The translations under genes and the position numbers were made by a program. The notes below the pieces were generated by a model, which worked only from the letters and a program-made list of their open reading frames with translations, was not told the DNA's origin and did not search any database. Below are positions 22,179-41,309 of a DNA stretch of 57,957 nucleotides, piece by piece. This DNA is from a virus. The stretch's first letter is position 1; each line of letters begins with the position of its first letter. The stretch covers positions 1 to 57,957 of IMG/VR virus record IMGVR_UViG_3300034375_000839, one strand, 5' to 3'.

Positions 22179-22663
22179 TGAAATATAACATGACAGAATT
22201 ACTAGACCAATTAGTTGAGCATGAAGGTCTAGAGTTAATACCTTATGAGGACAGTCTTGGGATTGATACTATAGGTATAGGTAGGAACTTAGAGCATAGA
22301 GGATTGACTGAAGCAGAGTTAGGTTACATAGGTAAAGATATATCAGATATATTTGAATGGGGTATTACTAAAGAACAGGCATACTACTTAGCACAAAATG
22401 ATATTAAAATAGTTGAGGAAGAGATTTGTAAAGCACATCCTTGTGTGATAGAATTAGACGAAGTTAGACAAAGAGTATTAATTGATATGGCATTTAATAT
22501 TGGTGTGCCAAGACTCAAAAAATTTGTTAAGATGTGGCAAGCCATACATGACAAAAACTTTGAAGAAGCAAAGGCTCAGATGCTAGATTCTCGTTGGGCG
22601 AATCAAGTAGGTAACAGGGCAGTGCGACTCTCTAATGCAATGAAATCAGGGGAGTGGGTATAA
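22178..22663 (+). CDS. endolysin, T4-type lysozyme (GH24), 161 aa
   Basis: EGLELIPYEDSLGIDTIGIG near the N-terminus matches the T4 lysozyme active-site motif. Glu16, Asp25 and Thr31 have exactly the T4 spacing (E11, D20, T26). VLIDMAFNIGVP and SRWANQVGNRAVRLS are further family motifs. It cleaves the N-acetylmuramic acid-GlcNAc bond in peptidoglycan. It has no signal peptide, so it needs a holin for release, and the next gene is a candidate. Length equals T4 lysozyme (164). Confidence 0.9.
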   Translation: MKYNMTELLDQLVEHEGLELIPYEDSLGIDTIGIGRNLEHRGLTEAELGYIGKDISDIFEWGITKEQAYYLAQNDIKIVEEEICKAHPCVIELDEVRQRVLIDMAFNIGVPRLKKFVKMWQAIHDKNFEEAKAQMLDSRWANQVGNRAVRLSNAMKSGEWV

Positions 22664-22665
22664 TA

Positions 22666-23052
22666 ATGTGGGGTGCAGTTATAAGTGGTGTGACGAGTCT
22701 TGCTTCTTCTTATATGGAAGATAGAAAAGTAAAGTCAGAACATAAAGCAAAAGTAGAACAGGCAAGAGTCAATGCAGAAATTAATAGAATTGAAAAAGCA
22801 GCACAGTCAGACCAAGACTATGACCTTGAAGCTTTACGACAAACAAGATACAGTTGGAAAGATGAATATGTACTTGTCATCATTACCTTACCTTTCATTG
22901 GAAGCTTCATACCTAATATACAAGACCATGTTCTCAAAGGATGGGAATATATAAACAAAGCACCTGAGTGGTATCAATGGAGTTTTATGGGAGCAGTTGC
23001 TGCTTCACTAGGTATCAGATGGGCTTTCAAGTTCTTCAGTGGTAAGAAGTGA
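22666..23052 (+). CDS. holin-like membrane protein, 128 aa
   Basis: Start at ATG 22666, 2 bp after the lysozyme stop. A weakly hydrophobic N-terminal region is followed by a charged helix. Two hydrophobic segments follow: VLVIITLPFIGSFI at about residues 70-83 and SFMGAVAASLGIRWAF at about 108-123. Similar 3-TM proteins after lysozyme genes are annotated as holins in marine phages and gene transfer agents. Its last 45 bp overlap the antisense terminase small subunit gene, an unusual convergent overlap. Confidence 0.65.
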   Translation: MWGAVISGVTSLASSYMEDRKVKSEHKAKVEQARVNAEINRIEKAAQSDQDYDLEALRQTRYSWKDEYVLVIITLPFIGSFIPNIQDHVLKGWEYINKAPEWYQWSFMGAVAASLGIRWAFKFFSGKK

Positions 23053-23484
23053 TTCGTCTTCTTCTTCCTCTTCCATATCTTCAGGAAAAGCTTTTGACAT
23101 TAATTCAAGCACCTTGTCTATCCCAAGAATTTCCATACCCTTAACAATTTCTTCCTCTAAGGAATCAGAAGTTATCTCATCTGCATCTATATTATTACCT
23201 CTAATTCTAGAGAGCAACTCTAATGCTTTTAATGCAGAAGTTGTTTGTCCTTGGGTACGTGCAACATTGTATTGATTTTCTATTTCATCAACAACGTCAA
23301 TGCTTGTTGTCATGTTAACAGTTAGTTCTTCTATTCTTTCTTGAATAGCAGTATCTTGTAGTAATCTTGAGCCTGTGTTGTGTGCAGAGACTTGACTATA
23401 TCCTGCATCCTTTGCGGCTCTTGTTGCATTCCTATGTAGGATATAGTTCTGACAAAACTTTTCATGCTTTTCTTTAAGCAGCAT
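23008..23484 (-). CDS. terS: terminase small subunit, 158 aa
   Basis: The N-terminal KFCQNYILHRNATRAAKDAG, then YSQVSAHNTGSRLL, is the helix-turn-helix of the Terminase_2 family, which recognises the packaging site and brings DNA to the large subunit. A central helical oligomerisation region and a very acidic C-terminus (FPEDMEEEEEDES) follow. I prefer ATG 23484; an upstream TTG at 23490 is possible. It lies on the opposite strand and about 19.4 kb from the large subunit (42933). It ends inside the holin-like gene. Confidence 0.8.
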   Translation of the reverse strand: MLLKEKHEKFCQNYILHRNATRAAKDAGYSQVSAHNTGSRLLQDTAIQERIEELTVNMTTSIDVVDEIENQYNVARTQGQTTSALKALELLSRIRGNNIDADEITSDSLEEEIVKGMEILGIDKVLELMSKAFPEDMEEEEEDESLLTTEELESPSDT

Positions 23485-25756
23485 TGTCAATCATCTCGTA
23501 GTAGTATTTTTCTTTTGCCTTCAAAGAGTTCTTCCAAACTTCAGAAACTAGTGTGTTAGTACCATGAACCTTGAGAGACATGTCCATATTCTTATCATCA
23601 AATAGTTTCTCACAGTCCTGTGCCATTGCAAGCAACTCTCCTGTAGTCCAAAAGTATTCTCCATTGGTTTCCACCTTAAAGTATTTAGGTTTACCTGAAG
23701 TTTTTTCTTTTTTCATTTCTTCTGTTACTTCAGGAACTGAGCAGTCAAAACCAAATAACTCAAAGTTTCTAAAGCCAAGTATGTGAGCAATGGATATTGT
23801 TCTCATGGCTGCACAAGTTCCACCTGATACCAATGTTTCTCCTTCTTCTATGCCTGTATCCTTAGCAATTTTAAGTTTATCTTTGACAGTCTTATCTCTT
23901 AGTGCTTCAGAGTAGGCAGACCAACCTTTAATATTTGCACCTTTTTTTATAAGGTATTTAGTAACTGAAGGGTCAGTCATAGAAGCTACAAGAAAGATGG
24001 TGTCCTTGTTTATCTTTTTAAATAAATCTTTTCTTACTACACCATGAGTACTTGTGCCTGTGATAGGTCTTGGGTCAAGTATAGAACATATAAAAGGACT
24101 GATGCCATGTTCTAGTAATTTAGGATAGCTGTGCTTAACACAAAAGATTTTAGTGTTAGGTTCTCTAGCTTTCTTTTTTAGTAAGTTAAAGTCTGTGCTT
24201 GAACCACCTGAAACAATAAGGGCAGTTTCATTATGTATTCTACCATGCTTCAACCAATTAAAATCTTTAATTAACTTTTTATTTTCTTTTATGTTTACAA
24301 ATATTTCATCCTTTGGTCTTGAGTCTTTAGGTGTAACCACAATAGGCATACGAGTAATTTCATCAGGTAGTTTTTCTACCTTCTTACTGTTAGCAACAAA
24401 AGCAATATGTGTTCTACCACCACCTAGAACTTTATCATTAGAGGGAAGAACAACTTTACCATATGCTTTTATTTCTTTTAGTAATTTATTAACACCCATA
24501 TTTTTTTCTAAAGGCTTCTGTCCAAACTCATCCTCAGAAAAGAAATCATCAAACACAAGTATAGGAACTTTCTTTAGATTATTATAGTCAGCCTTTACAG
24601 TTTCATATGAATGACCACCATCTATAAAAGCAAAGTCAACATTACGAGCTAACTTATTTTTCTTTAGTGTAATCTTAGAGTCACCTTTGTAAAGCTTAAA
24701 TATAAATTCTTTATTCTTCTCTTTCATTTTTTCTTTGAATTGATTTAGTCTTGTTTCAATAAGCTCTATTGTATGATGCTTCTTACTATTCATTTCTATA
24801 TCATCAGTAAGAGCAGTTGCTTCTTCAAACAAATCAAAACCAAAATATGTAAACCTGTCTGTGTATTCAAAGGCTGCAAGTGCCATTTCTATAGCTCTGC
24901 CACCATTCCATGTACCTACTTCAGTAAGTGTTTTAGGTTTGTAGTGTCTTATAATATCTGCAAGCTGTCTATATCTAGGTAACTTTACATCCTGTGCAAG
25001 AGTATTCTTTTTGTTTTTTAGATTACCTTTGTAGTGTATAAAATATTCTGAAAGAGGTGACTGCATGAAGGCAGTAAGACCTTTACAATTTTCTGATAGA
25101 TTGTTGACTACCATACCATGTGCCTTGTAGATATTAAGAAGTCTTTCAAATATAAAACCATCATGCCATTCTCTGTACGAAATAGTTTCACCTATTGTAT
25201 AACAACCTCTTAGGTCTGCAAGTATTGAACAGGCATCATGGTACTGTAAGTTAAAACCCATGAAGCTTGTTTCGCTGTAGTCAACATCTTTTCTTCCTAG
25301 ATGTACAAGACTTGCTTTGTTAGGTAACCACTTGTCAACTGCAGATTTATCTAGTCTCTTTGTAGTAACTGTATCTGCATCAAGCCATACTAACCACTGA
25401 GGTTCTTCAGGGTTCTTATTTTCTTCCATCATCTTGAAGGCTCTGTCAGTTAGGGCATACACTTTATGACACCACTTGACTGCATCTAGTCTCCAGTTGT
25501 AAGGCATTGTTCCACCTTCAGTACCATCATGCTTCTTCATCTTCTCACGATAGTCAGTCATTTCTTTTACATCATTAAGATGTATATATACAATGCTAGA
25601 AGAAGTAGGATGGTCAACCTTTTCAATGTCAAAATCATGGTAGTAAGCATATAGTTTAAAATGTTTTGGATTCCATTTTTCTGCCACACTTTTAAGCATT
25701 TCTTTTGCATAGGTATTATATCCTTCCTCGCTGAAAGAAGTTACGAATGTATACAT
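23474..25756 (-). CDS. three-domain glycosyltransferase / methyltransferase / DUF115-like protein, 760 aa
   Basis: I start at ATG 25756 (AAAGGAA site, 1 bp after the upstream stop). An open frame continues 45 codons further but overlaps that gene. Residues about 1-235 are glycosyltransferase-like with an LDADTV metal-binding motif. Residues about 250-460 are a class I SAM methyltransferase (LTEVGTWNGGRAIEMAL, and FAFIDGGHSYETVKADYNNL for the acidic loop). Residues about 500-760 resemble DUF115/MptE-like enzymes of flagellin-glycan synthesis (ALIVSGGSSTDFNLL, HGISPFICSILDPRP). It probably builds or modifies a glycan on virion or host surface; the substrate is unknown. It overlaps terS by 11 bp. 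Confidence 0.75.
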   Translation of the reverse strand: MYTFVTSFSEEGYNTYAKEMLKSVAEKWNPKHFKLYAYYHDFDIEKVDHPTSSSIVYIHLNDVKEMTDYREKMKKHDGTEGGTMPYNWRLDAVKWCHKVYALTDRAFKMMEENKNPEEPQWLVWLDADTVTTKRLDKSAVDKWLPNKASLVHLGRKDVDYSETSFMGFNLQYHDACSILADLRGCYTIGETISYREWHDGFIFERLLNIYKAHGMVVNNLSENCKGLTAFMQSPLSEYFIHYKGNLKNKKNTLAQDVKLPRYRQLADIIRHYKPKTLTEVGTWNGGRAIEMALAAFEYTDRFTYFGFDLFEEATALTDDIEMNSKKHHTIELIETRLNQFKEKMKEKNKEFIFKLYKGDSKITLKKNKLARNVDFAFIDGGHSYETVKADYNNLKKVPILVFDDFFSEDEFGQKPLEKNMGVNKLLKEIKAYGKVVLPSNDKVLGGGRTHIAFVANSKKVEKLPDEITRMPIVVTPKDSRPKDEIFVNIKENKKLIKDFNWLKHGRIHNETALIVSGGSSTDFNLLKKKAREPNTKIFCVKHSYPKLLEHGISPFICSILDPRPITGTSTHGVVRKDLFKKINKDTIFLVASMTDPSVTKYLIKKGANIKGWSAYSEALRDKTVKDKLKIAKDTGIEEGETLVSGGTCAAMRTISIAHILGFRNFELFGFDCSVPEVTEEMKKEKTSGKPKYFKVETNGEYFWTTGELLAMAQDCEKLFDDKNMDMSLKVHGTNTLVSEVWKNSLKAKEKYYYEMIDNAA

Positions 25757-25757
25757 A

Positions 25758-26522
25758 TTAATTTTCCTTTGGTAATATTCTTGAGTTGTATGAGTTGTGT
25801 AGTGTATCCCACTCACCTGCGTAGTGAGCATCACATAGTCTCTTTGGTTTCCAACTGTCAAACCAAGGACCACCTGTAGTAAAATGTACATTACATGGGT
25901 TTATTGATTCATCAGTCCATCCATCTAGGAAGTTCCACTTAGGATGGATAGAACCTATCTCTTCATCTTCTAGCCAACTAAAGTTATGTAGCCATCTACC
26001 TGACTGTTCATTAACATCCTTGATTGTAAGTCTTTTGTTGGCAGGGTGTTCGCAGTTCCATAGTATAAAGCTAGACCAATTCTTTCTATTATAATTAGTC
26101 TGTATTTGATTGTCCATTTTAAAAATTTCTTTAGGCTTGTACTCATGCTTAACAACAGAGACTGCATACTCATCAAACTGTCCATACTCTTCAAAGACTT
26201 CTGTTATGTCTGCTCTTAACAACATATCACAATCCATAAAAATAGCAAGACCTTTATGAAGATTAATAAAAGGTATTAAGAATCTTGTAAATGTAAACTC
26301 ACTACTGAAAGGTCTCTTGTCTGAAGAGTCTATCTTCTGATGTTGGTCATCAAGAAAGTAAGTTCTTTTGTAGAGACCTGATAAACGTAGGGATGATTGT
26401 TCAAGGGGAATGATATCATATTTATGGGTATACTTTTCTATTGAAAATTTTAATACCTCAAAAGCAATATGTTCTTTAGGGTCATACCCTACATATATAA
26501 CAGGTCTTCTACTAGTAAACAT
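25758..26522 (-). CDS. glycosyltransferase, GT8-like, 254 aa
   Basis: VIYVGYDPKEHIAFEVLKFS at the N-terminus is a nucleotide-sugar binding beta-alpha unit. FMDCDMLLRAD carries the DxD metal motif. PFSSEFTFTRFLIP and HFTTGGPWFDSW match GT8/GT24-like folds. It transfers a sugar from a nucleotide donor. I use ATG 26522; a GTG at 26531 is possible. It is 1 bp from the three-domain protein, so the two act together. A similar enzyme occurs in cyanophages. Acceptor unknown. Confidence 0.75.
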   Translation of the reverse strand: MFTSRRPVIYVGYDPKEHIAFEVLKFSIEKYTHKYDIIPLEQSSLRLSGLYKRTYFLDDQHQKIDSSDKRPFSSEFTFTRFLIPFINLHKGLAIFMDCDMLLRADITEVFEEYGQFDEYAVSVVKHEYKPKEIFKMDNQIQTNYNRKNWSSFILWNCEHPANKRLTIKDVNEQSGRWLHNFSWLEDEEIGSIHPKWNFLDGWTDESINPCNVHFTTGGPWFDSWKPKRLCDAHYAGEWDTLHNSYNSRILPKEN

Positions 26523-26524
26523 TT

Positions 26525-26755
26525 TTACCACTTAAAAAATTGGTCAATTAAATTAAAGTGATTAGGCATGACAGTTGTTGCTCCATACTTTTCTTTTGCA
26601 ATATCTCTATACTTATTATATTTTTGAGTTGCAATTTCAGAAGCAGCTTCAAACTCTTTCCATGCAGATTTTAAGTCACCATACTTTAAGTCTTCCACTT
26701 CTTTTTGTTTAGATTTTATTTCTTCTTCAAGTTTTTTAATCTTATCGTCTGACAT
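26525..26755 (-). CDS. coiled-coil accessory protein, 76 aa
   Basis: A charged coiled coil from the start (KIKKLEEEIKSKQKEVEDLK), then a second helix with aromatic residues and a hydrophobic C-terminus (HFNLIDQFFKW). It is the first gene after a strong promoter and has an AAAGGAG site. The stop is 2 bp before the glycosyltransferase ATG at 26522. It may scaffold the two transferases; that is inference from operon position. Confidence 0.65.
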   Translation of the reverse strand: MSDDKIKKLEEEIKSKQKEVEDLKYGDLKSAWKEFEAASEIATQKYNKYRDIAKEKYGATTVMPNHFNLIDQFFKW

Positions 26756-26796
26756 AGTATACTCCTTTCCATTACCAGAAGATTTCTTCTATAGGA

Positions 26797-26825
26797 ATTA
26801 TAATATATATTGAATAGTGAGTCAA
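26797..26825 (-). promoter_or_regulatory. strong sigma-70 promoter of the glycosyltransferase operon
   Basis: Reading the minus strand: TTGACT (26825-26820), a 17-bp spacer, TATAAT (26802-26797). This is within one base of the bacterial consensus. It fires 42 bp before the coiled-coil gene and gives the glycosylation/terS block its own transcription unit, independent of the nucleotide-metabolism operon upstream. Confidence 0.75.
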
Positions 26826-26832
26826 GGACTTT

Positions 26833-27459
26833 TTAATAAAAGTACTCGTCAGTATCTCCAAGCCTTTTATTCTTTTCGTTTTCTACTTGGTAGTACTCTG
26901 TACTTACTTTAAAATCAGGCTTCAAAGGTTCTTCAGGTGTGAGGGAATTATCATAGACTCTCATTCTGTTATTGGGATAGAGAGCATACTGTCCATTCAC
27001 AAGTTCAATTAAATTAAAAGACTTATGCTCTTCAGGCACTTCACTTGTGCTGTAGTCTATTTCATCTGCAAAGGGATGGTAGTTATCAAGGGTGCAGATA
27101 TAAAATCCCTTGACAGTTCCAAAGTCATGTGTTAAAATTTCGTAGTCCATTGTGGAGATAAACTGTTTATGTATGTTGACTACACCATAGTCCATACAAT
27201 TCCAAAACTGTAAATTGTTAAGTGGCATATCAGGGTCAGGTAACTTAGGCTTGGACAGGAATGCAGAGATGGGAAGCTTGTCAAACAATGCACCATACTT
27301 AGGAAGATATGTTTCAAAGTAGAAGGCTCTTCCAGGTATTGACTTAGCAGTCACCCAGTTACCTTCTACAAATTCTCCATGACCATCCTTGAAGTCTCTT
27401 AGATATTCTTTTCTTACCCATACTTTGTTTGAAGGTAGGTTAGCTATTAGTGTTGACAT
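26833..27459 (-). CDS. conserved phage protein of unknown function, 208 aa
   Basis: WVRKEYLRDFKDGHGEFVEG, then SIPGRAFYFETYLPKYGALF and DKLPISAFLSKP, are strongly conserved in hypothetical proteins of marine podoviruses and cyanophages that I recall. The middle holds VPEEHKSFNLIELVNGQYAL and PNNRMRVYD. It is a soluble protein with no recognisable catalytic motif. It lies 3' of the ribonucleotide reductase and ends 8 bp before the -35 box of the next promoter. Function unknown. Confidence 0.7.
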   Translation of the reverse strand: MSTLIANLPSNKVWVRKEYLRDFKDGHGEFVEGNWVTAKSIPGRAFYFETYLPKYGALFDKLPISAFLSKPKLPDPDMPLNNLQFWNCMDYGVVNIHKQFISTMDYEILTHDFGTVKGFYICTLDNYHPFADEIDYSTSEVPEEHKSFNLIELVNGQYALYPNNRMRVYDNSLTPEEPLKPDFKVSTEYYQVENEKNKRLGDTDEYFY

Positions 27460-27571
27460 TATTTTTCTTGAATACCTTTCTTCCCTTAAAGAATACTATT
27501 GAGTTTATGCAAGTGTTAATGGTGATTGCAATTAACAACCACCACTGCCACCAATCAAGTTCATTCCCCAT
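27440..27571 (-). CDS. micro membrane protein coupled to ribonucleotide reductase, 43 aa
   Basis: ATG overlaps the reductase stop (TAATG), giving MGNELDWWQWWLLIAITINT, then CINSIVFFKGRK and a basic Asn-rich tail. A Trp-rich N-terminus precedes a single membrane helix and a positive C-terminus (N-out, C-in expected). It ends 20 bp inside the next gene. It is too short for most gene finders, but start overlap, frame and topology look real. Role unknown. Confidence 0.6.
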   Translation of the reverse strand: MGNELDWWQWWLLIAITINTCINSIVFFKGRKVFKKNNVNTNS

Positions 27572-29508
27572 TATGTTATGTCCACTATCTCACACGAACC
27601 TGCAACACAAGCAAACTCTTTACTGCCTGTAGTTGTATCTTCTTTTTCGTAGTCTGATAATTTAGACCAATCAATAGACTTAGGCATTATATTTTTTAAC
27701 TCCAAGTATTCTTCTCTTTCTACATCTTGGTAAGGTGCTTGCTTATATACATGGTCATAAAAAGGAAGGAAGGAAATGCCTGATACCTCATCAAAGTTTT
27801 TATAAACCCATGCTCCTACTTCCATCCACTCATCCTTCTTAACAGATATAGTTACAGAAGGTTTGTGTTCACACCAATGTCTCTGAAAGATTAACCAATA
27901 ATCTAATTGTTCAATAGCAGTCATTTCAGTTCTAGTTATTGCACCTTCAGGAGACTTAGTAGGAAAGCTAAACACAGTTGTGGTTTCGTGTTCAATACCT
28001 ACAGAAGGTTCTGAAGGAATGCCTGCATCTTTCATAAACTGTGTGAGTGGGTCTGTGTTCCCTGCTCTTACAGTTCTTATGTAGTATTCACTATGTCTTG
28101 CATGAATACCTGATGCACTATCAACCAACTGACTAACTGTACCACTAGGTTTGACACAAGTAATTGCAGTTGACTGAGGTATACCTAACATCTTGGCATA
28201 CTTTTTATTTGTTTCTACTGCAACATTCTTTAGATTTTCTAGTGTATCTTTTAATGTAATGTTGCGAGGTGTAAGTAAAGGACAGTCAAGTATACCTGTA
28301 AGAGAAACTCCTAACAGTCTTTCCTCTTCTGTATTCTGTTTCCATATCTTACGTAAATATTTAAAGTTAGTAAGTGTTGATTGAAGTGTTCCTAATATTG
28401 TTGCAACTTCTACTTTTTGTTTTAGAGATTCTATAGTGTCACCTTCTCTACAAACAACTTCAGTTAGGTTACAGAACTGATAAGGTCTTAGAATAATTTC
28501 ACTACAAGGATTGCAACCAAACTCATGGTCAGCATCTCGTCTACCATTTTCTTTGACTTTGTTTTTTGCTGCCTGTCTATTGAAGATACCTCTCTCACCT
28601 GAATTAGATTCATATAGAGACAACCATTCTTTCATAAATGTTCCTATGTTAGGTTTATCTCTATAGGCAACAGAGTTATTGGCTTGACCTCTTTGACCAT
28701 TTCTTATTATATTTTCTTCAGGTATATCCCACCACTCTCCTGACTTACAATGTCTTATTTGGTCATCATTTAAATTAGACAAAGAGATAAGGGCAGAACG
28801 TCTTACACCACCTACAACAACTGCCTGTCCAATCTTACACATGATATCATGGCACTCAATAGGATAAAGTCTTCTGCCTTTTGCATCTTTAAACTTATCT
28901 ATAGTAAACTTACATAGATTAAGGAAAGGTTCAGGTCCTGATGCTCTACCACCCATAGTATTTAACTTAGCTCCTGCAGGTCTTACTTCAGATACGTCTA
29001 TTGTAGGTATCTGACCTACATATAACATAGCAATTAACTCTCTCAAAGCTTTTGCCCAACCTGGTCTAGAGTCAGCAACCTTTATAACTGTAGTGCTGTC
29101 TTCAAAATGCTCATTAACAATAGGTAGTTTGTCAACATTACTTCTTTCAACAGAGAAGCCTACACCTGTACCACACATAAGAATGTACATACACTCGTCA
29201 AAGGCTCTAGGTGAATCTACAGGTATGTAACTGCAGTTGTAGCTAGTTACATTACAATTCTGAAGAGCAGGTCCTGCAGTCATCAATGCCCTCATAGAAG
29301 GCATAACTTCTAGACCTAGTATCTTTTGTTCTAGTTTCTTTCTAAGAGAATCTGTTAAAGTTTTACTATGCAATCCCTGCATGTAGTCAAAATATCTTGA
29401 GACAGTTTCTGTCCAAGTCTCTCTTCTTTGTTCGTCTTCCTTCCATCTTGCATAGCGAGATAAAGCAATAAAGTTTTGATAGTCTGTTGGTAGTAAGTTA
29501 CTTTTCAT
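27571..29508 (-). CDS. nrdJ: class II (B12-dependent) ribonucleotide reductase, monomeric type, 645 aa
   Basis: Converts ribonucleoside triphosphates to deoxyribonucleotides with adenosylcobalamin, supplying phage DNA synthesis. An N-terminal region with NCNVTSYNCSY (Cys85 and Cys92) supplies a disulphide-forming cysteine. NPCSEIILRPYQFC holds the radical cysteine, the catalytic Glu two residues later and the second disulphide cysteine 11 residues on, as in the Lactobacillus enzyme (C408, E410, C419). CVAGSC (CxxxxC) at the C-terminus is the reductant shuttle. It needs host or scavenged B12. TAGGAC precedes the ATG. Confidence 0.9.
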   Translation of the reverse strand: MKSNLLPTDYQNFIALSRYARWKEDEQRRETWTETVSRYFDYMQGLHSKTLTDSLRKKLEQKILGLEVMPSMRALMTAGPALQNCNVTSYNCSYIPVDSPRAFDECMYILMCGTGVGFSVERSNVDKLPIVNEHFEDSTTVIKVADSRPGWAKALRELIAMLYVGQIPTIDVSEVRPAGAKLNTMGGRASGPEPFLNLCKFTIDKFKDAKGRRLYPIECHDIMCKIGQAVVVGGVRRSALISLSNLNDDQIRHCKSGEWWDIPEENIIRNGQRGQANNSVAYRDKPNIGTFMKEWLSLYESNSGERGIFNRQAAKNKVKENGRRDADHEFGCNPCSEIILRPYQFCNLTEVVCREGDTIESLKQKVEVATILGTLQSTLTNFKYLRKIWKQNTEEERLLGVSLTGILDCPLLTPRNITLKDTLENLKNVAVETNKKYAKMLGIPQSTAITCVKPSGTVSQLVDSASGIHARHSEYYIRTVRAGNTDPLTQFMKDAGIPSEPSVGIEHETTTVFSFPTKSPEGAITRTEMTAIEQLDYWLIFQRHWCEHKPSVTISVKKDEWMEVGAWVYKNFDEVSGISFLPFYDHVYKQAPYQDVEREEYLELKNIMPKSIDWSKLSDYEKEDTTTGSKEFACVAGSCEIVDIT

Positions 29509-29509
29509 T

Positions 29510-29854
29510 TTAATGTCCTAACACTGCGTTGATTCGTTTTCTTGTATATTCTACTTCACCTGATTCTAAAACTTTAAATGCAAACTCTCTCATATAATTA
29601 TGGTCAATGTTTGCATAGTCACATACCATTTTAAAATCTTCTGAGGTAACACCTACAGATGCAAAGAACCATGCCTTTGCCCTGTCTCTTTCAAGTGAGG
29701 ATGTCTCAGGCTCACCCTTGTAAGAAGGTTTAGTCGCATCAAGTAATGCCTGAAGGATGACACACATATATAATGTTTGTTCAGGAGTTGTTCTTTCTCT
29801 AAAGACATCTTCCTCAACAACAAAGTTTAAATTTGTATTTACTTTGTTATCCAT
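29510..29854 (-). CDS. conserved helical phage protein, 114 aa
   Basis: A helical protein with DVFRERTTPEQTLYMCVILQ, then RAKAWFFASVGVTSEDFKMV, which I know as a hypothetical protein beside nrdJ and endonuclease genes in marine podoviruses. It is adjacent to nrdJ (1 bp gap) and overlaps endonuclease I by 16 bp. It may bind DNA or regulate the reductase; unproven. Confidence 0.65.
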   Translation of the reverse strand: MDNKVNTNLNFVVEEDVFRERTTPEQTLYMCVILQALLDATKPSYKGEPETSSLERDRAKAWFFASVGVTSEDFKMVCDYANIDHNYMREFAFKVLESGEVEYTRKRINAVLGH

Positions 29855-30213
29855 TCTTTTGGTATCCCATCACTGAATTTGCAATACTTGAATCCATTCT
29901 TCTCACACCAAGTAGCATAAGTCATCTTTCCATTTTTGTATAGCTTCCTATTGGGATTATCAAAGACAAATCGAATGTCGTAATGAGGACACTGCTTTCT
30001 TACAAACAGATGTTTCTTTCTGTCCTCTAGTACGAACCTTCCCTTTACCTCTAGGATAATCCCATTACTTAATACAAAATCAGGAATATACTTTTTGGAT
30101 TCTAGCCATTCATAATTTATGATTAGCTTTTCGTATTTAAATGATACCTTATTTTCTTTTAAGAAGCAATAGGTATTGTACTCTGAATTAGAACGAAACT
30201 TATGCTTTGGCAT
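29839..30213 (-). CDS. T7 endonuclease I-like Holliday junction resolvase, 124 aa
   Basis: PDFVLSNGIILEVKG has Asp45, Glu55 and Lys57, spaced exactly as T7 gp3 D55, E65, K67. Glu11 fits T7 Glu20. DRKKHLFVRKQCPHYDIRFV and WCEKNGFKYC are further clear family matches. It resolves branched DNA before packaging and degrades host DNA. Overlaps its neighbours on both sides (14 and 16 bp). Confidence 0.9.
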   Translation of the reverse strand: MPKHKFRSNSEYNTYCFLKENKVSFKYEKLIINYEWLESKKYIPDFVLSNGIILEVKGRFVLEDRKKHLFVRKQCPHYDIRFVFDNPNRKLYKNGKMTYATWCEKNGFKYCKFSDGIPKEWITK

Positions 30214-31063
30214 TAGTAATTTCTTCTACATCAGGAGTCTTGTTAACCTGTGTTAGATAACGTACTCCTGTGGAATACTTGAACTTTCTTAATCCTTTGC
30301 CTTGATTAGCATCAGACCAACAATGTTCCTTGTATCCACAGAAGACGCAACCTAGTGCAAGTTTTTTATTACCTGACTTGCCATCAGGTTCATCAGGAAA
30401 ACATTTCTGAGGTGGAGAGGAAGACTTAACAACATCCTTGAGATGTTTGACCCTGTCAGAAGCATTTATCATATGTATACTTTCCACAGGCATGTAAGTA
30501 AGTTCTCCTGTAGATTTGTCTATTGCAAGAAAGCCTGCTGAGTCATCACCTGCACTCTCTGCATAGGCACTTATCTGAGATATGTAACCAAATGGGTCAT
30601 TGGTAGTAAGAGAACCATCCTTAAACTTCTTGAAGCTATAAGATGAAGCACTCTTTATATCAACAAGAGTACCATCTATCCTACAATCCTTATGACCCTT
30701 GACACCTTCTATCTCTTCCATCTTCTGCATTTCAGATACGTCATGTCCTGAAGCTTCTGCAAGAAGTATAACAAGAGACTCTAGGATTTCTCCATACAAA
30801 AACTTTATTTTAGTTTTAGCATCTAGTTTATTTGGTTTTATATCTGACTTTATATCATACCATAATTGTCTGTCAGGTCTTCCTATTTGAGAGAGCCTTA
30901 ACGTAGTTACGTCATCTCTCTTCTCAAATAAGAACTTCTCAATAGAGTCCATTACATTTTTGTTAAAGGTTTCTATAAAAGTTTTATCAGTTTTTCTTTT
31001 ATCTAAACCTTCATCAATAGTCCTGTAAATATCTTGGACTAATGTGTCTACCTTTTTGCTCAT
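30200..31063 (-). CDS. Cas4/RecB-like PD-(D/E)XK exonuclease, 287 aa
   Basis: I start at ATG 31063 after AAAGGAA; an open frame extends 14 codons further. GHKDCRIDGTLVDIKSASS holds the nuclease core (Asp then DIK), and QISAYAE is the RecB motif III. Near the C-terminus KCFPDEP and then GCVFCGYKEHC place four cysteines as in Cas4/AddB 4Fe-4S clusters. It probably degrades or recombines DNA in the role of T7 gp6 exonuclease. The precise polarity is unknown. Confidence 0.8.
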   Translation of the reverse strand: MSKKVDTLVQDIYRTIDEGLDKRKTDKTFIETFNKNVMDSIEKFLFEKRDDVTTLRLSQIGRPDRQLWYDIKSDIKPNKLDAKTKIKFLYGEILESLVILLAEASGHDVSEMQKMEEIEGVKGHKDCRIDGTLVDIKSASSYSFKKFKDGSLTTNDPFGYISQISAYAESAGDDSAGFLAIDKSTGELTYMPVESIHMINASDRVKHLKDVVKSSSPPQKCFPDEPDGKSGNKKLALGCVFCGYKEHCWSDANQGKGLRKFKYSTGVRYLTQVNKTPDVEEITNAKA

Positions 31064-31122
31064 AATATATTCCTTTATAAAATTTTCCCACCAACCACAA
31101 CCCACTTCAGCATTAAGCTTAT

Positions 31123-31581
31123 TTAGAAAGGAATCTCATCAGAGTCTAAGTTATCTCCTGACTTATATCCATCAGGTATGACATCAAAGTCCTCACCTTC
31201 TGAATATTCTACAAGATTAATAACTTGGACTGCCTGCAGGTCAGCACCTATACCACTCTTACCTGCATAACTCCATTCATACGTTTTATAAAGGACATTA
31301 ACATCAGAACCATTTCCAACTAATGTTCCCTTGATGTCTCTCTTTTGAGAGTCTTTTAAAGATGGTGGATTGTTTTGACTACCATTCTTAGAAGTTACTT
31401 TTCTCTTCAGGGTAACAAAGTCTCCTCTATCATCATCTTTATTCTTTACTGCTAGACCTGAGTCTATAGCTTTCTTTTTATTAGCTTCATCTAAAGCTAG
31501 GTCAATACTCCAAACAGGCTCGAATGTAGTGTTTGGATTTGAAATAGATGCCCAATAGGCTTTACCACTTAATACTGGCAT
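31123..31581 (-). CDS. ssb: single-stranded DNA-binding protein (T7 gp2.5-like), 152 aa
   Basis: An OB-fold-sized beta protein with AYWASISNPNTTFEPVWSID at its start and a C-terminal acidic tail ending DSDEIPF, like the E. coli SSB tip DDDIPF that recruits partners. It coats ssDNA and stimulates polymerase and helicase. AAGGAG site; a consensus promoter lies 57 bp upstream. The family is from motif and position between the nuclease and polymerase genes. Confidence 0.75.
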   Translation of the reverse strand: MPVLSGKAYWASISNPNTTFEPVWSIDLALDEANKKKAIDSGLAVKNKDDDRGDFVTLKRKVTSKNGSQNNPPSLKDSQKRDIKGTLVGNGSDVNVLYKTYEWSYAGKSGIGADLQAVQVINLVEYSEGEDFDVIPDGYKSGDNLDSDEIPF

Positions 31582-31637
31582 ATGTCTTACTCCTTAGTTT
31601 GTTAGTGCAATCTTAGTTGCTTGTTAAATTATAACGA

Positions 31638-31666
31638 ATTATACTACACCTCAAAAGGTATGTCAA
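31638..31666 (-). promoter_or_regulatory. perfect consensus sigma-70 promoter before ssb
   Basis: Minus strand: TTGACA (31666-31661), 17-bp spacer, TATAAT (31643-31638). The spacer ends GAGGTGTAG, and the promoter at 36375-36403 ends its spacer with AAGGTGTAG too. It drives ssb, both nucleases and probably the reductase. Confidence 0.85.
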
Positions 31667-31670
31667 CCCA

Positions 31671-33323
31671 TTAATGTGTTTCATACCAATTTTTTCCTAT
31701 TTTATATTCACTATCCAAAGGACATTGAACATTCAGTTCTTTCTCTACAAGCTTCATAGCCTTTTGAGTTAGGTCTCCAAACCTTTCAGCTTGGTCTCTA
31801 CGAACCTCAAATTGGTATTCGTCATGGATAGATGCAACAAGTTTATAATCATATCCCTGTTGCACCTTTAAAGTTATTTGTCGTAACCATTCCTTACAAA
31901 TGATTGCACCTGCACCCTGTAGTAGTAGGTTCATTGATGCATGAAATTGTCTGACCTTTAGTAGTCTACCATCAATACCTCTTATGAGTCCTGTCTTGGC
32001 TACTCTGTCTACCTTATCACGCAAGGTCTTAAGAGCAGGCATATTGGACATAAACTTATTGATAATATTCTTGCCTTCAGTCTTACCACCACCAACTATC
32101 TGACCTATCTTATCAGGTCCTGCTCCATAGATTAGAGCATAGATAAAAGTCTTTGCTTGGTCTCTTGTCTTCAGACCTGCAGCCTTCTGATTGGCAGTAT
32201 GTATGTCACCTTCAACAACTTCCTTTGTAAACTTGGAATCACCCATGTAGTGGGCAAGGCAACGAAGCTCTAGGCTAGATGCATCACAACCTAGTAACAC
32301 ATAATTACTATTGGTAGGTATCCAAACTGACCTACATTCCTTTCCATAGGGAGAATAGGAAGCAGGAACTTGAGCCATATTTGGAGAGTTGTGAGCCATT
32401 CTTCCACTAATTGCTTTTAGTGTCATCACTCTACCATGCACCTTACCATCTTCTTGGACTACTTGTATCCAAGACTTAATCTGAGAAACTCTCTTCTGTA
32501 ATAGAAGATACTGAGCAATCTGTTTTGCTTCAGGAATATCTTTAATTTTTTTCAATGTTCCTTCATCAACAATAGGATGCCCTGTTGGTGTCAGGTTCTC
32601 AGGTTTCCAACCTTTCTCTATCAACCTCTTTGATATTTGTTGTCTAGAGTTAGGGTTGAACTCTTCCACACTATCAATCAATCTGTTACCTGTCTTCTCA
32701 GAGTATCTTTCTGTAATGATAGGTGGGAATATTTCTTGTAATTCTTTTTCTATCTTGTCTGCTTCTTCTTCAAGTCTTGCACATAACTTATCTGCCTGTT
32801 CAATGTCTAGTTTAAAACCATTCTCTTCCTGTCTGTTAACTATGGCTCTGACTTGATGTTCAAGAAGCATTGACTTCTTTGAATATTTTTTTAGTGTAGG
32901 TAATAAATGTTTATATAATTTATATGTCAACTCAACATCTTGTATACAATACTTTAACATATCTTCATTGAAGTGAGAGAAGTCATTGTAATCTATCTTA
33001 CCAAATCCCAATCTCTGTCCCCATGCCTTGAGTGAGTGTCCACCTTCTAGCATAGGGTCAGATAATTGTGAAAGGATAAGTGTGTCTCTGACCTGTGCAA
33101 GTTTTATCCTGCTACCTGTCAGCTTGTTGAGTATGGGAGCATCAAATGATATCCCATTATGCATAATAAATATATCTACAGATTCACTCCACTTAGCAAA
33201 GTCTTTTAGTGTATCTCCATACCATGATAATACATCTCCTTTATCAATGTCTTTGGCAACAATACAATGAATGACCTTTGCCTTGATGTCATCAGTTTCA
33301 ATATCTACTACAAATTTTCTCAT
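31671..33323 (-). CDS. family A DNA polymerase with 3'-5' exonuclease, T7-like, 550 aa
   Basis: Exonuclease motif Exo I is VVDIETDD (Asp7, Glu9); HNGISFDAP is Exo II and YCIQDVELTYKL Exo III. Polymerase motif A is GCDASSLELR (Asp347), motif B RDQAKTFIYALIYG, motif C SIHDEYQFEV. Tyr395 sits where E. coli Pol I has Phe762, as in T7 gp5; in phages this residue tends to go with fast, lytic replication. It is shorter than T7 gp5 (704) and may use another processivity factor. Its ATG overlaps the primase-helicase stop. Confidence 0.92.
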   Translation of the reverse strand: MRKFVVDIETDDIKAKVIHCIVAKDIDKGDVLSWYGDTLKDFAKWSESVDIFIMHNGISFDAPILNKLTGSRIKLAQVRDTLILSQLSDPMLEGGHSLKAWGQRLGFGKIDYNDFSHFNEDMLKYCIQDVELTYKLYKHLLPTLKKYSKKSMLLEHQVRAIVNRQEENGFKLDIEQADKLCARLEEEADKIEKELQEIFPPIITERYSEKTGNRLIDSVEEFNPNSRQQISKRLIEKGWKPENLTPTGHPIVDEGTLKKIKDIPEAKQIAQYLLLQKRVSQIKSWIQVVQEDGKVHGRVMTLKAISGRMAHNSPNMAQVPASYSPYGKECRSVWIPTNSNYVLLGCDASSLELRCLAHYMGDSKFTKEVVEGDIHTANQKAAGLKTRDQAKTFIYALIYGAGPDKIGQIVGGGKTEGKNIINKFMSNMPALKTLRDKVDRVAKTGLIRGIDGRLLKVRQFHASMNLLLQGAGAIICKEWLRQITLKVQQGYDYKLVASIHDEYQFEVRRDQAERFGDLTQKAMKLVEKELNVQCPLDSEYKIGKNWYETH

Positions 33324-34966
33324 AAAAAGTCCTCTACATCTGATTGGTTGTCAGACTCAAGTGGATTGGAAATCTCTTTCAATCGACCTGTGTCCTTGTC
33401 ATATAACAGGTAAGCAGAGACACCTGTCTCACCTGCATATCTATTCTTTAGTACCCTGACAGTTGTTGTATTAGCCATGACAGGGTCTTCTGCTTGTTGG
33501 TCTCTCTCTAGTGCAATGACTGCATCTGATATCTGTGCAATAGAGTGTGAACCTCTTAGCATTGATAAGGATATTTCCTTACCCTGTTCCTGACCTTTAT
33601 CTCCTGTTGCTCTTCTCAAGTGAGATACTAGTAGCATGGCACATCTAGTTTCTTCTACAAGAGAACGTAGCTTAGTCATAAGTTGGTCAATGTTTCTTCT
33701 CTCATCCTCACCTTCAATACCTGATACAAGTATGGATAGGTGGTCAATGAGTATGTACTTACAGTCTAGTGCCTTGACCATGTATCTTACTCTGTTAAGT
33801 ATCTCATCAGTAGTAATAGAACCAAAGTGGTCAAAGCCATAGAACCTTCTAGTACCAATAGTCTTTCTTTCAAACTCTTTTAGTTGTTCTACTGTATAGT
33901 TCTTCTGTACTTCCTTGATATACAATCTGTCACTTGCTTCTACTGACATAATATGTAACATAGTTCTTGTTATGTTTTCTTCAAGAGAGAACACACCAAT
34001 GTTATGTTCAGTATTAGTTAGTAAGTGATGCATAAGTTCTCTCATAAGAGAAGACTTGCCTGCTCCTGTACCTGCAGTAAAAGTAACAAGTTCACCTGTA
34101 CGCATACCATACAACTTCTCATTGAGTCCATCATAAGGATAAAGACAAGTCTCTGTGTCATCTTCCTCATATATTCTTGATGTAATATCTGCAAGGTTAT
34201 GTATGCCTGCAGGAGTGTAGGGTTTAGCATTCCAAAAGTCTTGAGTGAACTCTTGCTTCTTACCTTTCATAAGATACTCATTAGCATCCTTGTATCTCAT
34301 GTCCATGATAAGACACTTGTTAGGTTCAAATATCTGAGCAACTTTTGTGGCTGCTTTTCTTCCATGCTCATCACTATCAAAGCATAACACAACCTTATCA
34401 AACTTATTTACATAGTCATAGTTAGCCTTGATATCTTTGAGTGCAGACTGACAACCATTCTTTATTGAAAGACATGCCCACTTAGAACCTTGTAACTCAT
34501 AGGCAGACATTGCATCAATCTCACCTTCACATATAGTAAGATACTTACCACCATGAGGAAACTTATTCTGTCCAAACAAGACTGCCTTGGGGATGTTACC
34601 TTCTGAAGAGAAACCTTTATTCTCTACAAGTCTTATCTTATTACCTATGTGACTATTATTAATGTCATAATAAGGATATATATGCTTGACCACATTGTGA
34701 TTTCTATCGTGTAAGACTTGGACATTAAAAAATTGTGTAGTCTCTCTCTTAATTGCTCTATCAGGTATACCATCTATAACTCCACTACTAAAATTTTGGT
34801 GATTACTATTTATGGATATAGGTTTTGTTACTTGTTCCATATCGTCTCCCTTTGAATAAGTTCTACATGAAAAGCAAAACTTAGTTCCACCTTCATATAA
34901 TACATTTGCATCAGATGAACCACACCTATCGCAACTACCTTTCTTAACTACTTTTGATTCACTCAT
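33320..34966 (-). CDS. primase-helicase, T7 gp4-like, 548 aa
   Basis: N-terminal zinc finger with Cys12, Cys15, Cys31, Cys34 (CDRCGSSDAN...CFSC) for template recognition. TOPRIM motif LTICEGEIDAMSAYEL at about residue 145. Walker A FTAGTGAGKSSLM at about residue 290 and Walker B YILIDHLSILVSG for the hexameric 5'-3' helicase. Closely matches T7 gp4 (566). It makes RNA primers and unwinds DNA for the polymerase encoded next to it. AAGGAATGATATG holds the ribosome site. Confidence 0.92.
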   Translation of the reverse strand: MSESKVVKKGSCDRCGSSDANVLYEGGTKFCFSCRTYSKGDDMEQVTKPISINSNHQNFSSGVIDGIPDRAIKRETTQFFNVQVLHDRNHNVVKHIYPYYDINNSHIGNKIRLVENKGFSSEGNIPKAVLFGQNKFPHGGKYLTICEGEIDAMSAYELQGSKWACLSIKNGCQSALKDIKANYDYVNKFDKVVLCFDSDEHGRKAATKVAQIFEPNKCLIMDMRYKDANEYLMKGKKQEFTQDFWNAKPYTPAGIHNLADITSRIYEEDDTETCLYPYDGLNEKLYGMRTGELVTFTAGTGAGKSSLMRELMHHLLTNTEHNIGVFSLEENITRTMLHIMSVEASDRLYIKEVQKNYTVEQLKEFERKTIGTRRFYGFDHFGSITTDEILNRVRYMVKALDCKYILIDHLSILVSGIEGEDERRNIDQLMTKLRSLVEETRCAMLLVSHLRRATGDKGQEQGKEISLSMLRGSHSIAQISDAVIALERDQQAEDPVMANTTTVRVLKNRYAGETGVSAYLLYDKDTGRLKEISNPLESDNQSDVEDFL

Positions 34967-34967
34967 A

Positions 34968-35177
34968 TCATTCCTTACTTGTTGTTAGTATCTTTGCAAT
35001 AGCTTCCATTGCACTCTTCTTAATTGAGTAGTACTTATTATCTATCTTATTATTATAAGCAACTATACATTCATATAAGTCTTTGTCTTTATCATAAGAT
35101 ACTACACACTCAACTTGTTTACCATCTACAAAACCATAGTAGTTATCATAGCCATATTGATTAGTCATCTTCTCCAT
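34968..35177 (-). CDS. small hypothetical protein, 69 aa
   Basis: Acidic/aromatic protein with NQYGYDNYYGFVDGKQVECV, a small beta domain, then a C-terminal helix. It precedes the primase gene by 1 bp and overlaps the upstream gene by 17 bp. ATG 35168 is an alternative start three codons later. Not recognised. Confidence 0.5.
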   Translation of the reverse strand: MEKMTNQYGYDNYYGFVDGKQVECVVSYDKDKDLYECIVAYNNKIDNKYYSIKKSAMEAIAKILTTSKE

Positions 35178-35346
35178 ACTCCTGTTTTATTATTTCATTT
35201 ATAAAGTCAGTATCACTTTCAATCTTGTCTGCGACCTCTTCTCTAGCATACTTCTTTGCTTCATGGTGAGTGTATCCTTCTTGGATTAACTCCTCATAGA
35301 TTTCTTTGTAGAGTTTCTGCTTGTCATTATCCCAAAGATTTTTCAT
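35161..35346 (-). CDS. small hypothetical helical protein, 61 aa
   Basis: Charged helical protein (IYEELIQEGYTHHEAKKYAR, then EEVADKI), ending in EYGEDD. The pattern suggests a small helix-turn-helix-like or coiled protein; not recognised. It overlaps the DUF3310 gene by 20 bp. Confidence 0.55.
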   Translation of the reverse strand: MKNLWDNDKQKLYKEIYEELIQEGYTHHEAKKYAREEVADKIESDTDFINEIIKQEYGEDD

Positions 35347-35638
35347 AGTTTTCTCTGTTCTTTATAAGTTTATTTAGATACCATTGAGCTTTCTTTAAAT
35401 CTTCAGTACCATTCTTGTATCTATATCTCCATAGATATTTCATAATGTTACCCTGTAGATAGTAAGCAAACCCTTCATCAGTCATTGCTTCAATAGCATC
35501 TATTGTTTCAATGCCTGCATTGTTGTAGTGAGGTGGACTGTTTACCATGTCCTCAAAGGAAGGTAATGTCATACCTTCTCCTATGTCATTAGTCTCTATA
35601 AGTTTTTTTACCATGTAATTGTCATACCTTTCTTCCAT
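35327..35638 (-). CDS. DUF3310 family protein, 103 aa
   Basis: SPPHYNNAGIETIDAIEAM, then YYLQGNIMKYLWRYRYKNGT and EDLKKAQWYLNKLI, is the complete DUF3310 signature (HYxxxGxExID, KYxxRxxxK, DLxKAxWYL). The family is common in phages and was suggested to be a nucleotide kinase-like or metabolism-linked protein, but its function is not established. Length typical. Confidence 0.85.
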   Translation of the reverse strand: MEERYDNYMVKKLIETNDIGEGMTLPSFEDMVNSPPHYNNAGIETIDAIEAMTDEGFAYYLQGNIMKYLWRYRYKNGTEDLKKAQWYLNKLIKNRENYEKSLG

Positions 35639-35646
35639 AAATACAC

Positions 35647-35850
35647 CTATGAATAATTAATTTTCTTTACTACATCAACGTAAGATTCTAACTTATCATT
35701 GAAGGTAGGCTTATCCATTAACTCCATCTTGTCAATGGCTTCCCATTCATCATTCGCACTTACTACAAAGGTGTTCTTAGTTATTTCAATTACATTAACT
35801 TCCCACCTATTGAGTAGTCTCTTTCTACCCTTTGAAACTTTACGAATCAT
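35647..35850 (-). CDS. small hypothetical protein, 67 aa
   Basis: Basic N-terminus (RKVSKGRKRLLNRWEVNVIE), then a beta-alpha segment (TFVVSANDEWEAIDKMELMD). The WEVNVIEITKNTFVVSANDE stretch resembles small phage proteins with a strand-turn-helix fold. It lies between DUF3310 and the nuclease-like gene. Function unknown. Confidence 0.5.
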   Translation of the reverse strand: MIRKVSKGRKRLLNRWEVNVIEITKNTFVVSANDEWEAIDKMELMDKPTFNDKLESYVDVVKKINYS

Positions 35851-35861
35851 ACCACAGTTTC

Positions 35862-36284
35862 CTATACATTGTCAATCTCCCTAAAAGTTTTAATTACATC
35901 AGATGAAAATAATTTCTGCAAGTTTAGTAGATACATTCTACTTGCATTATGGTCACCACCTGACACACTCTTTTTATAATCTAAGTTATCAATAATTTTA
36001 CGTAAGCTATTGATATCAAAGACTAATGTACAGAACACTTCCTTGCCTATACATAGATTATGAAACCAATAATCTGCTTCAGTTGTTTGGATTCCACTTG
36101 GCTTTCCATATGACTGATACTCTATGGCAATGTTGCCTGTCTTTTGCCATATGTCTCTCTCAGATTTGACTTCAATCTTTTTATCTTGCAACATATCTGC
36201 CACAAGTTTTTCCCTTACCTTACCATACTTCAAGTCCATATCAAACTTTTTCCTGTTAGGTTTTGAGGGTTCTAAATTTTCCAT
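35862..36284 (-). CDS. putative PD-(D/E)XK endonuclease, 140 aa
   Basis: DLKYGKVREKLVADMLQDKK, then IEVKSERDIWQKTGNIAIEY, has the spacing of resolvase/VSR-like nuclease cores: an N-terminal helix with Glu, then E-x-K. WFHNLCIGKEVF is a further conserved stretch. It could act in recombination, host-DNA degradation or protection. GGAACTC precedes the ATG. The activity is an inference from the motif. Confidence 0.55.
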   Translation of the reverse strand: MENLEPSKPNRKKFDMDLKYGKVREKLVADMLQDKKIEVKSERDIWQKTGNIAIEYQSYGKPSGIQTTEADYWFHNLCIGKEVFCTLVFDINSLRKIIDNLDYKKSVSGGDHNASRMYLLNLQKLFSSDVIKTFREIDNV

Positions 36285-36295
36285 TGAGTTCCTTT

Positions 36296-36376
36296 CTAGT
36301 ATAAACTTGTGAATGCAAGGATGTATACCATTGCAAATAAACTTAGTAATAAATATTTAATATCTTCATTGCCCAT
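36296..36376 (-). CDS. possible 26-aa membrane peptide
   Basis: Reads MGNEDIKYLLLSLFAMVYIL then AFTSLY. One hydrophobic helix, no good ribosome site; its start lies at the -10 hexamer of the promoter at 36375-36403, so the transcript from that promoter would not include it. It is preceded by another small membrane ORF. It is more speculative than its neighbours. Confidence 0.25.
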   Translation of the reverse strand: MGNEDIKYLLLSLFAMVYILAFTSLY

Positions 36377-36403
36377 TATACTACACCTTGAGTGCAATGT
36401 AAA
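36375..36403 (-). promoter_or_regulatory. sigma-70 promoter before the nuclease-like gene
   Basis: Minus strand: TTTACA (36403-36398), 17-bp spacer ending AAGGTGTAG, TATAAT (36380-36375). The AGGTGTAG-TATAAT block is shared with the ssb promoter (31638-31666), suggesting a common regulator or extended element. It would drive 36284 down through the primase-helicase and polymerase. Confidence 0.65.
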
Positions 36404-36500
36404 TGCATAGTATAATTATTAATAGTTTACCATAATCAAGGTCATACTTTGTACCTTCGCCATAGTTTACATTAAAAAAATCTATAATTCTATGTAACAT
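36381..36500 (-). CDS. micro membrane protein, 39 aa
   Basis: Reads MLHRIIDFFNVNYGEGTKYD then a hydrophobic helix LLIIILCIYIALKV. The start lies 1 bp after the stop of 36502-36732, with AAGGGA upstream. One C-terminal membrane helix. Overlaps the promoter region at 36375-36403. Likely real from the ribosome site and topology; role unknown. Confidence 0.45.
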   Translation of the reverse strand: MLHRIIDFFNVNYGEGTKYDLDYGKLLIIILCIYIALKV

Positions 36501-36501
36501 T

Positions 36502-36732
36502 TTACCAATCCCTTCTATCTAAGTCAAAGGCACGTCTTAAATCCCACATGCTCTGCTCTAAGTTTCTTATGTCAGATAAATATAAGTCTTGACACTCAAA
36601 CAACATCTGTAGTGCTGAACTTACATGCCTTTCAGTTTCTTTAACTGCTTTCATTTGTTCATCAGTCATACCATCAATACCTTTTTTCCTATTAATTTCA
36701 ATTAATTCAGATTCACTTTTTTTATTAGTCAT
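36502..36732 (-). CDS. small hypothetical protein, 76 aa
   Basis: A helical, charged protein (TDEQMKAVKETERHVSSALQ and SDIRNLEQSMWDLRRAFDLD). Coupled by TAATG to the methyltransferase gene, so it may regulate or assist that enzyme; that is a guess. Not recognised. Confidence 0.5.
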   Translation of the reverse strand: MTNKKSESELIEINRKKGIDGMTDEQMKAVKETERHVSSALQMLFECQDLYLSDIRNLEQSMWDLRRAFDLDRRDW

Positions 36733-37754: not shown

Positions 37755-37756
37755 TG

Positions 37757-37963
37757 TTAAACTCCTATAATGTGATACTCACCATGCTCATCTATAAGTG
37801 TAAGTATGGCTTCATGTTTTGGTGTGCTTGTTTGAATCTCTAGCCTATGAACTACATAAGGTAGTTGCTCCATACGAAACTTAAACTCTTTCATGTTAAG
37901 AGCATTACCTTCCACTAGATTTTCTAACATAAGTCTTACTTTTATTTTATCTTTTTGATTCAT
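37757..37963 (-). CDS. small hypothetical protein, 68 aa
   Basis: Basic/charged protein with KVRLMLENLVEGNALNMKEF and a C-terminal beta pair (EAILTLIDEHGEYHIIGV). It ends 2 bp before the methyltransferase ATG and overlaps its upstream neighbour by 4 bp. Not recognised. Confidence 0.55.
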   Translation of the reverse strand: MNQKDKIKVRLMLENLVEGNALNMKEFKFRMEQLPYVVHRLEIQTSTPKHEAILTLIDEHGEYHIIGV

Positions 37964-38166
37964 ATCTTTTCCCTTCCTTGTTTGAAGAAATCATTCTGAA
38001 CCATGAAGTCTGCATATACAGTTATACCAAACTCATAGCCTTGTTTGTAGTAAGGATTTCTACTGTTATCATCTCTACTACCATGAAGTATTGCATCTGC
38101 AACACCATCTTTAAAATATCTTAAGTCTTTCTTAGTTAGTATTTCTACTTTAACTAGTTCTGACAT
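37960..38166 (-). CDS. small hypothetical protein, 68 aa
   Basis: RYFKDGVADAILHGSRDDNS, then YYKQGYEFGITVY, looks like a small soluble domain. A GGAGAATTAACTATG ribosome site is strong. It lies in the early gene string. Not recognised. Confidence 0.55.
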   Translation of the reverse strand: MSELVKVEILTKKDLRYFKDGVADAILHGSRDDNSRNPYYKQGYEFGITVYADFMVQNDFFKQGREKI

Positions 38167-38168
38167 AG

Positions 38169-38345: not shown

Positions 38346-38347
38346 AT

Positions 38348-38963: not shown

Positions 38964-38964
38964 A

Positions 38965-39324: not shown

Positions 39325-39345
39325 TAGTTTTCTTTCCTTTGTTGT

Positions 39346-39680: not shown

Positions 39681-39693
39681 TTTATTTTCCTTT

Positions 39694-40958: not shown

Positions 40959-40983
40959 TATTTATCCTTTCAAGAAATGAAAA

Positions 40984-41004: not shown

Positions 41005-41015
41005 CTAATTAAGTT

Positions 41016-41290: not shown

Positions 41291-41309
41291 TAGTTCAAAT
41301 ATACTTAGC

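Follow-up and report, generated by a model that had tools for sequence, protein, structure and literature searches.

The DNA analysed here (the window) is the record of a marine bacteriophage, 57,957 nucleotides long, IMGVR_UViG_3300034375_000839 in IMG/VR, taken over its full length. On its minus strand, at 23008-23484, lies a gene for a protein of 158 aa with an N-terminal helix-turn-helix (HTH), a helical middle and a disordered acidic tail, which an earlier note, made from the letters alone, had named as the small terminase subunit (TerS). Profile searches agree with that name: the protein matches PF03592 (Terminase_2) with an E-value of 2.4e-15 and 57.8 bits, where the curated limit is 26.1, and PHROG 51, a family of small terminase subunits, with an E-value of 1.6e-20 over residues 2-116. 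No other family in Pfam or PHROG gives a convincing match, and small terminases are the top named matches in a search of a viral library; repeating the search at a looser limit with the terS of a relative gained no further phage. The reading frame is open from a TTG (23008-23490, minus strand), and an internal ATG at 23484 matches the starts of the relatives' terS genes, so that the start at 23484 is the correct one.

Structural comparisons point the same way. A profile built from 20 members of the family finds, among solved chains, the SF6/SPP1-like small terminases 3zqp (E 7.2e-11) and 4zc3 (E 1.5e-10) and the Pam5 small terminase 21di (E 7.1e-7, positions 4-101). The AlphaFold2 model is all-helical (mean pLDDT 77.4, pTM 0.39), with long helices at 61-77 and 81-97, candidates for the region that would form a ring, and a tail of low confidence from residue 140. 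Its top solved fold is a full-length SPP1-like small terminase (3zqq, E 1.1e-3, TMq 0.42 overall), while the DNA-binding domain 4zc3 fits with a TMt of 0.90 and an rmsd of 1.0 over 56 columns, and an HTH DNA-binding domain is hence predicted at the N-terminus both by sequence (E 1.5e-10) and by fold. The SPP1/SF6 protein G1P, which has the same Pfam-type domain, is thus the top solved-structure match on both counts. One could still argue that this is an HTH regulator recruited to the replication genes while the real TerS goes unrecognised, since the best sequence matches among solved structures span only the N-terminal HTH (profile positions 3-59) and the pTM of the full-length model is low. 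However, the PHROG 51 match runs well past the HTH, the Pam5 match extends over positions 4-101, Foldseek aligns the full-length SPP1-like terminase over 119 columns, the gene is present once in each of the ten relatives that have a large subunit gene (terL), and no other terS-like protein was found among the small ORFs scanned near terL. We find the regulator hardly credible, and judge from these matches that the protein is a genuine Terminase_2-type small terminase. It would work as small terminases usually do, assembling into a ring that binds concatemeric phage DNA, recognising the packaging site there and passing it on to TerL at the portal.

TerL (507 aa, PF17289, E 5.7e-15) is encoded by the plus strand at 42933-44456, close to where the structural genes begin. 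The gap between terS and terL is 19,448 bp and the two are on opposite strands, as the earlier note had described with a distance of about 19.4 kb. A terS closer to terL would have undone this description, and we looked for one by comparing selected small ORFs with the profile libraries and by searching the whole record with PF03592. The only match to PF03592 in the record is terS itself, and none of the other small ORFs scanned near terL belongs to a terS family. The 70-aa ORF directly before terL (42721-42933), partly conserved in several relatives, was considered as a nearer terS and rejected, as it matches neither Pfam nor PHROG.

The two genes belong to two divergent arms. The minus-strand arm (23008-42143) carries replication and nucleotide genes, namely a primase-helicase, a DNA polymerase, a single-strand binding protein (SSB), a Cas4-like exonuclease, an endonuclease, a ribonucleotide reductase and a glycosyltransferase/MptE gene, with terS as the last gene. 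The plus-strand arm carries terL, portal, GroES and capsid genes and continues across the ends of the record with tail and ejection genes, an endolysin (phage lysozyme, 22178-22663, PF00959, E 5.2e-12) and a holin-like gene. The ends of the record align with each other (217-414 against 57760-57957 at 88%, the last 124 bases being identical to 291-414), which makes a circular map of about 57.5 kb probable; at the join there are two alleles of a PHROG 8198 gene with diverging upstream halves. The genome is therefore probably circular, with a replication arm running on the minus strand from 42.1 to 23.0 kb and a structural arm on the plus strand that begins at 42.7 kb, crosses the record ends and reaches 23.05 kb, and the sign of the GC skew switches at about 23.0 and 42.3 kb. 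Between the heads of the arms lies an AT-rich intergenic region (42144-42720) that holds two of five copies of a 23-bp repeat on the minus strand (41267-42394), four of them exact and one with 2 mismatches. These copies sit upstream of the starts of the leading minus-strand genes or in the divergent gap, where none is expected by chance, and they are probably early promoters, or operators, that serve the minus arm. Besides the window, the repeat recurs exactly in only 3 of 147 loci, and a promoter scan of 40-44 kb gave nothing clearly above chance. Three other features of the record deserve mention: the match of a 96-residue ORF at 40088-40378 to NAD-dependent DNA ligases is confined to their N-terminal domain (PF22745, E 6.5e-13); the protein of 26833-27459 is labelled ferredoxin by PHROG 3704, whereas the homologous proteins of HTVC023P, HTVC027P and 023Pt_psg01 (35-38%) bear the annotation PurM, so that one of the labels is probably wrong; and an ORF of 485 residues with no convincing family match has internal repeats at 3004-3395, spaced by 75 and 96 bases.

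Upstream, terS adjoins the gene at 23474-25891 (minus strand, 805 residues), whose product has Methyltransf_24 and MptE-like regions and, by the label of the earlier note, a glycosyltransferase-like N-terminus; this product is conserved beside terS in all ten relatives. The earlier note had placed terS at the end of a glycosyltransferase operon. The operon is drawn too narrowly, since the 805-residue gene is itself the second-to-last of a minus arm of some 19 kb. In the window, 11 bp are common to the end of this gene and the start of terS, and all 27 rows compared (the window and 26 others) have the stop of the preceding gene 5-17 bp inside terS. Such an overlap suggests that translation of terS is coupled to that of the gene before it, which we consider likely.

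Downstream, terS meets the holin-like gene (22654-23052, plus strand), the last gene of the plus arm, tail to tail. This gene owes its label to its size and its position beside the endolysin; its sole strong match is PHROG 2524, a family with no assigned function, and it bears no similarity to the 'holin family protein' of CRP-810. The two 3' ends share 23008-23052, exactly 45 bp and codon on codon, so that the last 45 bp of terS are antisense-coding with the holin-like gene as the note had claimed. The overlap recurs widely. Our terS search gave 23 loci, two of which stop short of the terS stop; 17 of the remaining 21 have an antisense overlap, of 45 bp (10 loci), 48 bp (4) or 66 bp (3). Of seven additional records, six have overlaps of 66-69 bp and one, G024, in which a different ORF abuts terS, has none. 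In total, 23 of 28 resolvable relatives have the overlap and 5 show none; several of the loci are near-identical and not independent. Besides G024, the exceptions are four loci of the G009 type: G009 itself and L027, whose holin-like gene lies some 2.8 kb from terS, and L025 and L026, which end with no holin match. In G009 (L133), a minus-strand ORF of 341 residues lies beyond terS. With lengths of 45-48 or 66-69 bp in 23 of 28 relatives, the convergent overlap can be taken as old.

All these lengths are multiples of three, hence codons face codons, and differences can be counted in both frames at once. We did so for two groups of eight sequences each, leaving out near-duplicate loci and the L016 row. 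In the near group (the window and seven relatives), the holin frame shows 28.3% synonymous and 0.0% nonsynonymous codon differences within the overlap, and the terS frame 22.9% nonsynonymous and 1.6% synonymous. In the far group, nonsynonymous differences in the holin frame fall to 15.6% in the overlap versus 27.0% in the 45 codons before it, while in the terS frame they rise to 32.0% versus 22.7% in codons 1-100. The counts indicate that selection keeps the tail of the holin-like protein and that terS reads along passively, the seemingly conserved tail of terS being a by-product. A functional terS tail was considered and rejected, given that the differences in the overlap lie mostly at the third position of holin codons and alter terS. 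With the constraint mainly on the holin side, no joint function is needed: over these 45-69 bp terS would simply run on into the holin-like gene, and the overlap would persist through the constraint on the holin frame.

The convergent ends could also be given a regulatory role, in which minus-arm transcripts running past terS into the holin-like and endolysin genes would act as an antisense brake, delaying lysis until late transcription wins. The arms leave no intergenic room for a terminator, the terminator-like sites counted from 21 to 26 kb (4, with 2.2 expected, sd 1.4) do not clearly exceed chance, and the overlap is kept in 23 of the 28 resolvable relatives, all of which suits such a brake. 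Promoter-like sites scanned for around the junction did not clearly exceed chance either. Against the brake, the codon changes place the constraint mainly on the holin-like protein, so that the overlap is no evidence of a function at the RNA level, and G024 does with no overlap at all, as do G009 and L027 with their distant holin-like gene. We therefore regard it as unlikely.

Gene order in relatives, which the earlier note had proposed to compare, gives a clear answer. Profile and protein searches on 42 records, mainly the longer contigs out of 108 loci, found terS in 19, terL in 33 and both in 10. In all ten of these uncultured records the two genes are on opposite strands and 19.1-22.6 kb apart, the gaps in G009, G031, G035 and G036 being counted across the record ends on the assumption of circularity (31-34 kb within the linear record). 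All ten carry on one strand and in the same order the genes for polymerase, SSB, exonuclease, endonuclease, ribonucleotide reductase, a PHROG 28018 protein, the glycosyltransferase/MptE protein and terS, and on the other strand terL, followed by portal, GroES and capsid where the record reaches that far (on the landmark map, record G007 stops inside terL). Since every one of the ten records repeats the strand and the distance, and 23 of the 28 resolvable relatives the convergent overlap, the arrangement is not due to chance. A TerL tree of 22 rows gathers the window and nine relatives in one clade (support 100/100), separate from the HTVC023P-type group; the sister group (92/97) contains HTVC023P, HTVC027P, 023Pt_psg01, DSL-LC04, Pag-Yong1 and CRP-902, although several branches are long and the deep joins are accordingly unsure. 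In this uncultured clade, a relative of the HTVC023P-type pelagiphages, a distant terS on the opposite strand is thus a stable feature.

Among cultured or named phages, the closest by TerL are HTVC027P, 023Pt_psg01, HTVC023P and DSL-LC04 (38-40%), and in all four terS matches PHROG 51 and, weakly, PF03592. It lies at 4.7 kb from terL on the opposite strand in HTVC027P, at 3.1 kb on the opposite strand in 023Pt_psg01, and on the same strand at 4.8 kb in HTVC023P and about 4.8 kb in DSL-LC04. In the latter two it is 3' of the replication genes and on their strand, as in the window; in the former two it is opposite to them. The three HTVC023P-type phages (HTVC027P, HTVC023P and 023Pt_psg01) resemble the window in TerL (39-40%), portal, GroES (38-41%) and capsid (53-54%), and in having a PHROG 51/Terminase_2 terS that stands apart from terL. 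They differ from it in that terS is 3-5 kb upstream of terL instead of 19-23 kb away and does not meet the lysis genes tail to tail, in belonging to a distinct TerL clade, and in replication genes of only weak similarity. According to the available part of PMC9599517, the shared core of this type comprises helicase, DNA polymerase, terminase and GroES; the polymerase of the window is 21-25% identical to those of its cultured relatives over part of the protein, and no match to its primase-helicase was found in the first 50 kb of HTVC027P, HTVC023P, 023Pt_psg01 and DSL-LC04. DSL-LC04 resembles the window in its capsid (55%), its TerL (38%) and a terS apart from terL, co-oriented with and 3' of the replication genes, but has terS and terL on a single strand.

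Several other phages have terS beside terL. Roseobacter phage CRP-902 has a homologous TerL and capsid, yet its terS is directly upstream of terL, overlaps it and belongs to another family, PHROG 309 (L139, 1920-2408), which hints at a replacement of terS in the wider group. The gene is also directly before terL in PHS21, Pam1, Idiomarinaceae phage 1N2-2 and Aggregatibacter phage S1249 and, among the nearest terS matches, in GJ44, Seahorse and Mwe-Yong1318-1. In SPP1, terS is gene 1 and terL, directly after it, gene 2; the stop codon of the first overlaps the start codon of the second, and the region of gene 1 is also overlapped by pac (PMC6316719, available part). The stretches viewed of MR14, ctsTn925, S-TIM54, phiAO1, CRP-810 and Pag-Yong1 have no annotated terS, and in Vibrio phage 137E35-1 the gene is at the end of the record. 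Sc-Yong805-2 was rejected as a case of split genes, as the two are close on its circular record. A split is hence not unique to the uncultured clade, a lesser separation being already present in the deposited annotations of its cultured relatives. We found no paper commenting on it in the HTVC023P-type group and its kin, including the available parts of PMC9599517, PMC10149686 and PMC11288001, and the corresponding parts of PMC10307801, PMC9203015, PMC9729221, PMC8024684 and PMC7886860 describe no split of such a kind.

How the arrangement works and where it comes from can be approached from the arms themselves. As terS and terL are on different strands of divergently oriented arms, they must depend on different promoters, which bears out another statement of the earlier note and makes plausible its reading of the layout as split control of the two genes. 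The gene content of the minus arm suggests that it is expressed early to middle, and TerS would then precede TerL; this content and the five promoter-like repeats at the head of the arm lead us to infer that terS is early and terL late. Our preferred reading, to which we give a probability of about 0.7, is that TerS is a normal small terminase, co-transcribed with the replication genes and translationally coupled to them, that accumulates before TerL, the latter coming with the capsid genes. The layout itself would most likely go back to a replication arm that already ended, on its 3' side, with terS and was inverted or exchanged with respect to the structural arm. Such a move would explain at once the opposite strand, the 19-kb gap and the lysis-gene neighbour, with terS, last of the replication arm, brought tail to tail with the holin-like gene, last of the structural arm. 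Support for it comes from HTVC023P and DSL-LC04, in which terS is on the strand of the replication genes and 3' of them. HTVC027P and 023Pt_psg01, with terS opposite to these genes, speak against it, and the replication genes of the window and of its cultured relatives have too little in common for a plain inversion of one shared arm to be proven. The small number of loci with exact copies of the 23-bp repeat and the 5 relatives that show no overlap also count against the preferred reading as a whole.

Timing could also be irrelevant, terS having been carried along passively in the shuffling of arms and being expressed enough throughout infection. The place of terS does vary across the wider group, from adjacent in CRP-902 (with a terS of another family) through 3-5 kb in the HTVC023P-type phages and DSL-LC04 to 19-23 kb here, and terS plays the passive part where it overlaps the holin-like gene. 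The available part of the HTVC027P transcriptome study (PMC12753301) describes genes in mosaic early, middle and late clusters, with gp30, the upstream neighbour that overlaps terS (gp29), at high levels in the early as well as the late phase; from this, terS may be made throughout. Yet after the move its place has stayed fixed across the clade, even as terS identity falls to about 50%. We give passive carriage a little under an even chance. A bolder version of the preferred reading, with TerS made alongside the replication machinery marking concatemers before capsids are available, and an antisense transcript from the minus arm tying packaging competence to the delay of lysis, seems to us decidedly improbable.

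The products of terS and terL work together as a single machine, and the genes usually lie side by side. A clade that keeps them in different transcription units therefore offers a natural way to ask whether the subunits must be matched in dosage or timing. It also serves as a warning to annotators that terS should not be sought only beside terL. Finally, the overlap of terS with the holin-like gene offers an example of convergent genes in which one protein is under constraint while the other reads along.
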